64,000 bases of DNA, taken from contig NZ_BJXA01000010.1 in the NCBI RefSeq assembly GCF_007990755.1, positions 101,066 to 165,065 on the forward strand, given 5' to 3'. Under the pieces are notes generated by a model, which had not been told where the DNA came from, made no database searches, and worked only from the letters and a program-made list of their open reading frames with translations. Below are positions 5,901 through 53,413 of the stretch, one piece after another. The position numbers and the translations under genes are program-made. Position 1 is the first letter of the stretch; each line of letters begins with the position of its first letter. Origin of the DNA: Nocardia ninae NBRC 108245. GTDB lineage: Bacteria > Actinomycetota > Actinomycetes > Mycobacteriales > Mycobacteriaceae.

Positions 5901-6252
5901 GCCCGATCGCGCGATACAGCATTGTTCGCGTCCGGTGCGCCATCCGTGGCAATCGGTCGACCAGGACCGGTGGCTCGACGCCGATCCGGACCAGCGCGAC
6001 GATGGCCCGGGACACGAACTCCTGCTCGGCCGAGTCCATTTGGCCGACAAGGTGATCACGGTCGACGGCGATCGCGGCGAGGTGAATCGAGAGGACCCGC
6101 TCGTAATGACCGCGCCCGGCCAGATCGGTCAGCAGTGCGCGGAGCTCCGCGGTGCCCGCCAACCGCAATGCCACCGTCGCGAGGGCCCGGCGCCGCTGCG
6201 GCGCGGACAACGGTTCGAGGTCCTTCACTAGCTTCGTCGCCGGTGCTGCCAT
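2959..6252 (-). CDS. Large HEAT-repeat-like protein of unknown function
   Basis: Protein of 1,097 residues built almost wholly of paired amphipathic helices with the Ala/Leu/Arg spacing of HEAT/ARM repeats, for example AEAALTALGRSTEAEAAIGVLSR and RKEGVRLLAALHAPEVMAVL. No catalytic domain, signal peptide or membrane segment was recognised. Such solenoids usually serve as protein-binding scaffolds, but no partner is evident. GGAAAGG about 11 bases upstream supports the ATG at 6252. It is monocistronic, convergent with DUF4254 and codirectional with the DUF4126 gene 144 bases upstream. Confidence 0.65.
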   Translation of the reverse strand: MAAPATKLVKDLEPLSAPQRRRALATVALRLAGTAELRALLTDLAGRGHYERVLSIHLAAIAVDRDHLVGQMDSAEQEFVSRAIVALVRIGVEPPVLVDRLPRMAHRTRTMLYRAIGRRKHSAALADALLPEIRRRFGDAEAVRVLSYCSTPLVTEHLPEFAYAAPNWQTLGRRHTEVVLTYLSDLAAQAGESDWPELWPRIAAGASSFALRDPDRLLALAAQAVRYVQPYGLHAVAGKLARHNTDAVVELILHPSGRGTCLAGRALFTALRELPDERLIAVCAAYSGYHQRHFLHVLPPSRRLEPVRRVFIRPGVDAAQVDLDALDSLPRHDRATLARELLSRRGGSDDRPVRERLIARLPWAEAEPVLRESIRRPTADERAQAYPLLVAAAIGSRDPAVVGALFEAMRRLRNEQDPVRRTALQAINQIPPTLLRTEHLPALEGLGTDALQARDRSAMTTGAVGTMARTLLVHGARAADPAYTEAALRLIETLAAQAVSLPLWDLDRDLPRGAEQRLCTALRRRLDGDAVRDEWGLALDLAQGLNKRAWNVVPLQQLLLRACSARNDSVIHRAVDLVLADPATRDEQLTTLLNRDRSLISLPRVQHLIATRRTDLLDTVLNGATPGRFIAPKVRLVPDFSEGFGGWTARQVELYARALIALVRAKESSPWEKAWAVRRLGRLPGSFARLVGYTDHPELTVAEAALTALGRSTEAEAAIGVLSRYVDSDRARVAVSGIASRARSIAPDRLAAALTPLLDSPKITSRKEGVRLLAALHAPEVMAVLRAIWDRPDQHRDVRRAVVFACRWLLDHEDAWQILDAASRDPAVAGEALNLVPALLPIPQRRRMAGLVREMAGGADVQLATEAMRVLGGWQRWAPADTGDMLVHRLADLSETGLWRHAARVLVASDFRAAVPAAVDRLLAAEDVVIAGRDLPARQRLSTLLGNLGSSAGVSDAARETAVAVAERLAVEPQWRRFAIDLLVTQIRWADVDSSVRSIRQACGFARGALVVYPAEQLRTRLSRSGQMVDADTMTRVARELSVDVDSAVALAALALIAQCGSHFGWTPAWAELLTRMRTHGQSSVRVAAHEIFTIAE

Positions 6253-52251: not shown

Positions 52252-52272
52252 GCAGCAAGCGCCGGACATTGG

Positions 52273-52305
52273 GGAACCCGGGAGCGTAGCCTGCTCCCGG
52301 GTTCC
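52273..52305. terminator. Intrinsic terminator, bidirectional
   Basis: Perfect 13-bp stem GGAACCCGGGAGC / GCTCCCGGGTTCC with a 7-nt loop, 21 bases after the EamA stop. It also faces the end of the RNA genes on the other strand. Confidence 0.85.
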
Positions 52306-52323
52306 ATTCAATGCCGCCCAATT

Positions 52324-52465
52324 CGCACACCGCGGTAATGGGATCGGATGAGACTGAGATTCACGACGTGTCCTACGGTTGGACCACCTCCGCATGGGCG
52401 CGGAAGGCCGGAGTTGAACCGGCACCTCGTCGCGTACGTGTCCTTTCCTCGTCTCGCGGTGTTCG
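52324..52465 (-). ncRNA. Circularly permuted tRNA-like RNA, unit 2 (bacterial Y RNA-like)
   Basis: On the minus strand the order is anticodon-stem 3' strand CGACG (52428-52432), variable AGGT, T-arm with loop TTCAACT (52412-52418), acceptor CTTCCGC (52400-52406), a six-base linker, acceptor GCGGAGG (52387-52393), D-arm GTCC/GGAC and anticodon-stem 5' strand CGTCG (52364-52368). Acceptor halves pair over 7 bp with one G-T; anticodon halves pair perfectly. Flanks continue a stem: GAGAC/GTCTC and CGAACACCGCG/CGCGGTGTGCG (10 of 11). The linker holds CCCA. No decoding loop can be assigned, which fits a tRNA mimic. Confidence 0.75.
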
Positions 52466-52483
52466 GCAGCGAATACTCGTGCT

Positions 52484-52616
52484 GGAGCGAGAGTCTGAGA
52501 TTGAGCACGGTTGCCTCTACCAATTGGGCTACCCGGACCTGGATGCCCGGGAGGGGACTCGAACCCCCACTGACGCCGTGTCATTCAGCTTTAGCTTCAG
52601 ATTGAGTTTGCGCTCC
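52484..52616 (-). ncRNA. Circularly permuted tRNA-like RNA, unit 1 (bacterial Y RNA-like)
   Basis: Minus-strand order: leader GGAGCG, CTGA, anticodon-stem 3' strand CACGG (52576-52580), variable CGTCAGT, T-arm with loop TTCGAGT (52557-52563), acceptor CCCGGGC (52545-52551), linker ATCCAG, acceptor GTCCGGG (52532-52538), TA, D-arm (GCCCAATTGGTAGAGGC), anticodon-stem 5' strand CCGTG (52506-52510), TCAG, CGCTCC. Acceptor pairs over 7 bp with one T-G; anticodon stem perfect; flanks pair CTGA/TCAG and GGAGCG/CGCTCC. Same layout as unit 2, and both trailers share AATCTCAG. Ordinary, intron-split or split-tRNA readings fail because the other half combinations do not pair. Confidence 0.75.
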
Positions 52617-52623
52617 TTGCGCT

Positions 52624-52677
52624 TCCCCCGCACGCGGCGGGGGAGTCTGTGGGCTCGGGGCCGTAGCGGCCCCGAGC
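52624..52677 (-). terminator. Two hairpins downstream of the DUF7873-type gene
   Basis: A 10-bp stem GCTCGGGGCC / GGCCCCGAGC with a 5-nt loop (52653-52677) lies four bases after the stop. A second 8-bp stem (CCCCCGC / GCGGGGG core, 52624-52644) follows, just before RNA unit 1. They may end the mRNA or act as processing points between mRNA and the RNAs. Confidence 0.65.
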
Positions 52678-52681
52678 GGGT

Positions 52682-53413
52682 TCAGTGGAAGAGGTAGCCG
52701 AAGATCGCGTCACCGGTCTTGCGATCGGTGACCTCGGTCCCGTTGGCCGCCTCGCGGGCGAACTGCACTGCCCGCTGGAGCTTTTCGACTCGCACGGCCA
52801 GTTCGTTGACTCGGCGGGCCGGGAGGGCGCCGGAGAAGCGCACCATCGTCCAGTAGCCGACGGTGATGTCCTCGTAGTACACCTCCACCTGGGCCGGGTG
52901 CTTCTCGGTCGCCTCGGCCTTCACGTGGTTACGCGGCACCTTCTTGGTGCGCATGGTGCGCACCGGGTCGGTGCGCCAGGTGTCGGAGGAGTCGTCAAAC
53001 GACCACACCTCGGCCGCGTCGAGCACCGGCAGCTTGCGCACGAAGGTGTGCAGCTCGGCCAGCTGCTTCTCCAGGAACAGCAGGTAGGAGACCGGCACGT
53101 CGCGCAGCAGCACCTCGCCCTCGACCGTCACATCGGCCTTGGCCTCGGTGTTCGCCCAGTCCTTGGTCGCGGTGACGTCGAACAGGCGGGTCAGCGTGGC
53201 CGCGGTCTGGCGCAGCACCTCCTCGGACTTCACCTGCACCCGGGTGGACTCCGACGGGATCTGCTCGCCCTCTTCGTCTTTCGGCTGATAGGTGCGCGCG
53301 ATACCGGCCAGCAGCGGTGCCTTCTGCAACGACCCGTGCGCCTCGGCCAGCTCGCGCAGCGCGCCGCTCTTGATGCCCTTCTCGACCGCAATGATCTGAT
53401 TCAGCTTCGTCAT
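52682..53413 (-). CDS. DUF7873-type conserved protein
   Basis: Soluble protein of 243 residues (MTKLNQIIAVEKGIKSGALRE; middle TRLFDVTATKDWANTEAKADV; end REAANGTEVTDRKTGDAIFGYLFH). I recall similar actinobacterial proteins under DUF7873; function unknown. Many Lys/Arg and an alternating helix/strand pattern, no signal peptide. ATG 53413 has GGGGAGG seven bases upstream. It lies directly upstream of the two permuted tRNA-like RNAs on the same strand, so RNA binding is a reasonable but untested idea. Confidence 0.65.
   Translation of the reverse strand: MTKLNQIIAVEKGIKSGALRELAEAHGSLQKAPLLAGIARTYQPKDEEGEQIPSESTRVQVKSEEVLRQTAATLTRLFDVTATKDWANTEAKADVTVEGEVLLRDVPVSYLLFLEKQLAELHTFVRKLPVLDAAEVWSFDDSSDTWRTDPVRTMRTKKVPRNHVKAEATEKHPAQVEVYYEDITVGYWTMVRFSGALPARRVNELAVRVEKLQRAVQFAREAANGTEVTDRKTGDAIFGYLFH

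Follow-up and report, generated by a model that had tools for sequence, protein, structure and literature searches.

Bacterial RNAs that mimic tRNA in the manner of Y RNAs have been described together with the Ro60 protein, and one account describes Ro60 as held by the basal stem of YrlA, with PNPase bound by the tRNA-like domain (PMC8394870). Permuted tRNA genes are known too, 34 of them in six algae and one archaeon according to a 2014 review (PMC3978253). No description of the RNA treated here was found in the literature searched, a search that covered the core Y RNA papers only in part.

The window considered here is a 64-kb stretch of the Nocardia ninae genome. Its minus strand carries two permuted tRNA-like modules 3' of a DUF7873 gene (Table 1). 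A preliminary description placed them in an unannotated gap. The gap is real (52252-52681), but it is bordered by the DUF7873 gene on the minus strand, which that description did not name, and by the gene of an EamA transporter, which lies on the plus strand. The modules themselves can be read directly on the minus strand as described. Each runs from T-arm to acceptor 3' strand, 6-nt linker, acceptor 5' strand and D-arm, forms a 7-bp acceptor helix with one G-U pair, and is closed by a perfect 5-bp stem of the anticodon type. The D-arm of module 1 agrees with that of the N. ninae tRNA-Leu(UAG) at 19 of 20 positions.

Table 1. Features of the locus in window coordinates. R1 and R2 are the covariance models of modules 1 and 2.
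Feature	Position	Strand	Basis
DUF7873 (PF25283) gene, codes for 243 aa counted from the ATG; precedes the RNA, same strand; proposed partner protein	52682..53413	-	Pfam 385.7 bits, cut-off 27
GCGC-AAGGA-GCGC hairpin, 5' side of RNA	52610..52622	-	sequence; RNAalifold consensus of 42 actinobacterial RNAs
Leader strand, contains CTGA/CTNAAN repeats; forms the 5' strand in domain 1	52585..52609	-	5-bp helix with middle strand
Module 1, tRNA-Leu-type D-arm	52506..52580	-	R1 76.9 bits, E 8.2e-19 (own sequence in R1 training set); covariation in 59 relatives
Module 1 lower stem	CACGG 52580-52576 with CCGTG 52510-52506	-	sequence
Module 1 T-stem GGGGG/CCCCT, loop TTCGAGT	52563-52557 (loop)	-	sequence
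Module 1 acceptor 3' strand CCCGGGC	52551-52545	-	sequence
Module 1 linker ATCCAG, caps acceptor stem 1	52539..52544	-	sequence; linker statistics
Module 1 acceptor 5' strand GTCCGGG	52538-52532	-	sequence
Module 1 D-arm	52529-52513	-	sequence
Middle element CTCAGACTCTCGCTCCAG, conserved; forms the 3' strand in domain 1; candidate site of protein binding	52482..52499	-	conservation
5' strand of helix around module 2	52455..52470	-	covariation with tail strand
Module 2, kept where module 1 is missing	52364..52432	-	R2 68.1 bits, E 2e-17 (own sequence in R2 training set); covariation in 63 relatives
Module 2 lower stem	CGACG 52432-52428 with CGTCG 52368-52364	-	sequence
Module 2 T-stem GCCGG/CCGGC, loop TTCAACT	52418-52412 (loop)	-	sequence
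Module 2 acceptor 3' strand CTTCCGC	52406-52400	-	sequence
Module 2 linker GCCCAT, caps acceptor stem 2	52394..52399	-	sequence
Module 2 acceptor 5' strand GCGGAGG	52393-52387	-	sequence
Module 2 D-arm	52384-52370	-	sequence
3' (tail) strand of helix around module 2	52313..52334	-	covariation with middle strand
GC-rich terminator-like hairpin without T run, ends unit	52273..52305	-	sequence; covarying hairpin in 50 distinct actinobacterial loci

A module scanner run over both strands of the window returned the two modules besides a weak site at 6213. No tRNA is detected in the window by ARAGORN, and no Rfam family matches there at its curated cut-off. The best match below cut-off is YrlA, at 26.1 bits (E 0.0024) against a gathering cut-off of 69. 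A DNA pattern for permuted tRNA has three sites in the whole 9.7-Mb genome. One is module 1; the other two are ordinary tandem tRNAs. The folding energy of a 331-nt stretch is not lower than that of shuffles (z -0.22). The structural evidence for an RNA is comparative, not energetic.

For both modules, the compensatory changes predicted for related genomes are there, far above shuffles. In module 1 (59 sequences) 13 of 15 pairs have changed on both sides, giving 166 double-change cells against a shuffle mean of 46, and in module 2 (63 sequences) 15 of 16 pairs have done so, with 253 cells against 67.5. Moving the partner by one column abolishes most of the signal in each. The alignments had been reduced from 64 sequences by dropping five mis-sorted module-2 sequences and from 67 by dropping four that resembled module 1. 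Modules entered them partly by virtue of pairing, which inflates the 99% of positions that are paired. A control free of this selection anchors the strands by sequence only and takes the first anchored match per locus; anchors were found in 23 of 29 Nocardia, 49 of 79 genome and 29 of 77 viral loci for module 1, and in 28 of 29, 61 of 79 and 45 of 77 for module 2. Among distinct sequences, all seven acceptor pairs of module 1 form within their own locus in 12/12 Nocardia, 15/16 genome and 19/22 viral cases, against 57/132, 55/240 and 12/462 when strands are swapped between loci. The corresponding figures for module 2 are 14/14, 25/26 and 30/34, against 58/182, 71/650 and 24/1122.

Are these two RNAs or one? 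The preliminary description proposed separate RNAs of 130-140 nt, with leaders and trailers that pair to extend the stem of each unit. The flanks do form longer helices. However, these do not merely lengthen each unit; they unite the modules. RNAalifold on 42 actinobacterial sequences and pairwise covariation in 50 distinct loci give a leader/middle helix on which module 1 sits, two middle/tail helices around module 2 and the closing hairpin. In the 5-bp leader/middle helix two of the five pairs show double changes, which none of 300 shuffles reach, and double changes in each domain helix and in the closing hairpin exceed all 300 shuffles, for pairs picked after inspection of the pairwise covariation scan. 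Some positions inside the longer helices are unpaired, so these contain internal loops. Since the 5' strand of the covarying helices that enclose module 2 lies between the modules, the modules look like domains of one RNA. The separate short RNAs thus give way to what looks like a single predicted RNA of about 350 nt with two Y-RNA-like domains. In both, a stem carries a permuted tRNA mimic whose acceptor stem is capped and whose anticodon arm is replaced by the stem.

The two domains are not equally constant. The middle element CTCAGACTCTCGCTCCAG is strongly conserved in actinobacteria and recognisable in phages. Seven Nocardia loci chosen because module 1 is missing (L243, L248-L253) all keep the leader, the middle element and module 2. 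In six of them a short hairpin-forming insert takes the place of module 1, and in L253 there is almost nothing there. The repeated CTN AAR units of leader and middle could in principle encode a KLKL peptide, a candidate that 1-nt indels between relatives rule out.

The RNA is tied to DUF7873. The scanner (T-arm, acceptor strands, D-arm, lower stem) was applied to 201 loci with at least 400 nt downstream of the gene. At least one module was found in all 29 Nocardia loci and all 79 genome loci, in 15 of 17 loci from annotated phages and plasmids and in 64 of 76 viral contigs; the numbers with at least two are 16, 43, 9 and 34, respectively. The sets overlap, with 13 loci common to the Nocardia and genome sets and six duplicate pairs within the viral set. 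Distinct over 300 nt are 182 of the 201 loci; 169 of them have at least one module, 92 at least two and 13 none by the scanner, among which L038 and L039 were looked at individually. Controls are nearly empty: the opposite strands give 0/201 and mononucleotide shuffles 1/201, and under stricter settings 0/603 shuffles and 2/205 upstream regions. Where two modules lie 125-175 nt apart (99 loci, 89 distinct), their T-loops are mostly spaced by 143-151 nt.

The linkage is also apparent from the models. DUF7873 matches occur in 62 of 148 sampled Nocardia genomes, in a few as a fragment only. Of the R1 matches in the 148 genomes, 38 reach 62 bits, all beside a DUF7873 gene or remnant: 37 lie within 250 bp and one (G141) at 2.5 kb. 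The next-best match has 60.6 bits. An R2 match, read by eye, adjoins DUF7873 in 60 of the 62 genomes, the exceptions being G141 (2.5 kb away) and G065, where DUF7873 stands at a contig end. Both models were trained on some of the sequences scored, R1 on eight from Nocardia. Lower scores say little. R1 matches at E<=0.01 occur in 148/148 genomes and R2 matches at 1e-6 in 112/148 because ordinary tandem tRNAs and Ro60-linked and orphan modules also score, and only high R1 scores are specific.

RNA and protein can nevertheless separate, since in Nocardia the RNA outlives a truncated or lost DUF7873 gene. Both modules still match R1 and R2 where DUF7873 is truncated in G009 and G126, and three loci (L260, L261, L264) hold remnants of the RNA, module 2 plus tail, without DUF7873. 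The last three are apparent loss events and, together with G009 and G126, look like decaying copies. At one further locus (G083:C9:272663-289677) the DUF7873 matches fall into two pieces about 16 kb apart on the same strand, with the RNA adjoining the 3' piece; the distance suggests a large insertion into the gene. In a phage contig (L108:2501-3223) the DUF7873 frame has one stop codon near its start, which may be an error, a pseudogene or a case of recoding.

What is DUF7873? The N. ninae protein matches one from Nocardia suismassiliense with 100% identity over 246 aa. The literature search found no paper that mentions the family. The best AlphaFold2 model (pLDDT 91.7, pTM 0.76; the other four range in pLDDT from 87.7 to 72.9) predicts long helices and long beta ribbons. 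Foldseek finds no structural relative of the model at E<=0.001 in the PDB or among viral models, and it is for this reason that RNA binding by DUF7873 is put forward from linkage alone.

The protein is widely distributed. With tblastn it was found in four plasmid-collection records and in 73 phage records, from phages of Vibrio (29), Gordonia (12), Rhizobium (12), Klebsiella (7), Serratia (6), Arthrobacter (3), Pseudanabaena (2), Rhodococcus (1) and Microcoleus (1). Collection scans gave relatives in 279 stretches of viral origin and in no fewer than 575 from genomes, 80 of each being fetched for analysis; a viral scan with the Vibrio protein found no relative. In a phylum-level sample it occurs in 6 of 296 genomes and 2 of 198 genera. 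The protein-RNA pair spans Actinomycetota and phages of Actinomycetota, Cyanobacteria, Alphaproteobacteria and Gammaproteobacteria. In each of the 15 phage records examined R2 matches downstream of DUF7873, with scores of at least 40 bits in 13 and weakly in two Vibrio phages (26.0 and 23.2 bits), although the model was trained on the Phendrix and Pam2 sequences among others and also scores ordinary tRNAs in phage records. The Microcoleus phage match (40 bits) lies 2.1 kb from DUF7873 and pairs at about five of seven acceptor positions; the scanner misses it. Between the two stands a gene (L039:5184-6461) whose start, we presume, resembles IscB-like proteins.

Several phages carry the gene inside tRNA arrays, namely those of Arthrobacter, Gordonia (Phendrix) and Rhodococcus and Rhizobium phage RHph_TM21B. 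The stretches examined from PA-SR01, Pam2 and the Microcoleus phage have no annotated tRNA near it. Phendrix also has an Rfam tmRNA match at L035:2072-2600 (89 bits, cut-off 47), where its feature table lists no tmRNA. An ordinary tRNA gene stands directly downstream of the RNA in four of five related Nocardia loci. These belong to one lineage (L249-L252), and the ARAGORN assignment is Asn or Glu, the anticodon varying.

How does the pair relate to Ro60? The preliminary description saw no Ro60/TROVE gene nearby, and the TROVE profile indeed has no match in the whole N. ninae genome. Across 148 Nocardia genomes TROVE occurs in 65 and DUF7873 in 62, with both in 25 where 27.2 are expected; the two occur independently. 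Nine Nocardia TROVE loci (L234-L242) have one or two permuted modules of the same kind each, loci picked because R1 matched there, from which the share of Ro60 loci with a module is not derivable. The same modules at Ro60 loci mean that Nocardia has two parallel systems on one tRNA mimic. A single phage can have both as well. In RHph_TM21B DUF7873 comes with a module at 108456-108548 and TROVE (113363-114106) with another at 112424-112503, each protein with its own module and the modules 4 kb apart. TROVE is absent from the other 14 of 15 DUF7873 phage records. Ro60-linked modules at five Nocardia loci score 31-49 bits with YrlA, and DUF7873-linked ones from three phages and Nonomuraea 28-38 bits; the Pam2 module has no YrlA match at E 0.1. 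The RF02553 gathering score is thus a weak criterion, because the Ro60-linked Nocardia modules also miss 69 bits.

Some further observations belong here. Two loci beside Nocardia TROVE genes (L236:1146-1251 and L240:925-1028) match the nematode family ceN72-3_ceN74-2, which we take to be Y-RNA-like stem-bulge RNAs, at 38.9 and 32.1 bits (cut-off 38). Five Nocardia genomes have a third type of permuted tRNA-like RNA with a single module, at L254 (5060), L256 (5068), L262 (3035), L263 (2696) and L245 (759). The sequence CTGCGAAGGT precedes the module in four, and L256 belongs by similarity only. Their contigs have no DUF7873 or TROVE match; two of the five RNAs lie a few kb from what is presumably a DNA methyltransferase-like gene. 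Deinobacterium chartae is the sole carrier of TROVE and also of DUF7873 among 14 control genomes.

From sequence comparison, the RNA is conserved, widespread and structurally well supported, and it looks like one that works as a Y RNA does, with another protein partner. The probable explanation is a DUF7873 ribonucleoprotein, a two-part system in which an RNA of about 350 nt with two modules uses its tRNA mimics to capture a tRNA-handling enzyme. By analogy with Ro60 and YrlA, we propose that DUF7873 would hold the leader/middle stem of domain 1, a predicted contact suggested by the survival of leader and middle where module 1 is missing. We infer that leader and middle (CTCAGACTCTCGCTCCAG and its phage forms) are the putative protein-binding core and module 2 the main effector. 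The modules would mimic the tRNA elbow and the stack of acceptor and T-arm, since the acceptor helix is kept although its sequence drifts freely; such drift under strict pairing is what one would expect if tRNA shape is recognised and identity elements are not. Once presented, the mimics would tether or block an enzyme of tRNA modification, processing, decay or cleavage. The target is most likely in tRNA metabolism, because the pair sits in phage tRNA arrays and, in some Nocardia, beside a tRNA gene. A broader idea is more tentative: a second, Ro60-independent tRNA-mimic ribonucleoprotein of DUF7873 and a two-module RNA, carried by tRNA-bearing phages whose hosts belong to several bacterial phyla and domesticated in actinobacterial chromosomes, might capture a tRNA-targeting enzyme and in this way protect or reshape the tRNA pool during phage infection.

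What if the mimics are decoys? A tRNA body without an anticodon loop could occupy anticodon nucleases or other tRNA-targeting effectors with DUF7873 as its chaperone, used by phages against host defence or by bacteria against phages or toxins. The location in phage tRNA arrays and the stem in place of the anticodon arm suit this scenario. However, no conserved defence neighbour is seen in the window, where the EamA gene and two others that we take to be HD-type and YaaA-type are common to 5, 20 and 17 compared loci, respectively. PADLOC has nothing for the N. ninae protein and only one weak KwaB match, for a Vibrio phage member. We consider a dedicated decoy unlikely. Others have suggested YrlA as a competitive inhibitor of anticodon nucleases (PMC7790460), and such inhibition is the leading variant of the mechanism proposed above.

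Another possibility is that the modules are true permuted tRNA genes whose linker is cut out to leave real CCA ends, perhaps charged, as for algal tRNAs or two-piece tmRNA. A discriminator base plus CCA does start the linker in 40 of 99 cases for module 1 and again in 40 of 99 for module 2 (39 and 32 of 89 distinct linkers). The seven scanned loci of Klebsiella, Vibrio and Rhizobium phages each have NCCA in one module or more (the Klebsiella phage module 2 linker carries ACCT), the module-1 discriminator is A in 77 of 89, and there is the near-identity of the module-1 D-arm to tRNA-Leu(UAG). Against this, the modules show no anticodon loop and are flanked by conserved strands that form helices. 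CCA is missing from over half of the linkers, among them every one of the 16 module-1 linkers in the Nocardia set, many are only 4-7 nt long, and Ro60-linked Nocardia modules have varied caps. True tRNA genes are improbable.

One might instead regard the structure as a cis-acting 3' element of the DUF7873 mRNA, for stability or tRNA-responsive control, and not as a separate RNA. It follows the gene immediately, shares its strand and apparently belongs to the same transcription unit, which ends in a closing hairpin, and the pair could be a matter of cis-regulation or plain co-transcription. What makes a cis element a poor candidate is that both modules still match their models beside the truncated genes of G009 and G126, and that the two-domain fold is elaborate. 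Finally, an ordinary Ro60 Y RNA locus with its Ro60 gene elsewhere or lost is very hard to credit: the module is the same, YrlA matches weakly, TROVE is not rare in Nocardia and the 33-38 YrlA bits of the phage DUF7873-linked modules come near those of Ro60-linked ones, but N. ninae and nearly all the DUF7873 phage records are without TROVE, the two genes occur independently and the modules of Ro60 loci reach at most 60.6 R1 bits against at least 63.9 for DUF7873-linked module 1.

It remains to set the DUF7873-linked RNA beside the known systems. GOLLD and ROOL are structured RNAs that occur beside tRNA arrays and in phages, GOLLD in mycobacterial tRNA arrays, but their size and elements differ from those of the module RNA, which has no Rfam match of any kind at cut-off. 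The tmRNA is not known to have a D-stem, whereas the modules have one of 3-4 bp. No tmRNA match is found in the window at the gathering cut-off, and single-base indels in the leader between relatives argue against a tag reading frame. The likeness lies in the gene, which for two-piece tmRNA is permuted and processed into two pieces (PMC10085705). Permuted tRNA genes of algae and Thermofilum share the order of 3' half, intervening sequence and 5' half, and can encode CCA, but neither an anticodon loop nor a BHB junction that could be rejoined was recognised in the Nocardia modules.

The closest known system is YrlA (RF02553) with its partner Ro60/Rsr. There, too, a stem of 5' and 3' strands carries a module of D-, T- and acceptor arms (PMC8394870). 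The modules at Nocardia Ro60 loci are permuted and capped in the same way, and phage occurrence is common to both. The RNA has the permuted, capped module of a Y RNA and a stem made from module-flanking strands (0/300 shuffles for each helix); it falls short of the RF02553 gathering score and has no TROVE gene, adjacent or genomic. The preliminary choice between a Y RNA and a new permuted class can thus be narrowed to Y-RNA-type architecture, possibly a new class, but not a Y RNA partnered by Ro60, given the DUF7873 linkage and the independence from TROVE. Unlike YrlA, the Nocardia RNA has DUF7873 and not TROVE as its partner gene, carries two modules, differs in its conserved stem elements, and shows frequent NCCA linkers and, in module 1, a D-arm of the tRNA-Leu type. 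DUF7873 thereby gains a first testable role, that of an RNA partner. Here the mimic known with Ro60, in most cases doubled, goes with another protein. Two ribonucleoproteins with one mimic and different proteins, even within one phage, offer a natural comparison, which makes testable both the identity of the enzyme that the mimic recruits and the reason for its presence in phages with tRNA arrays.
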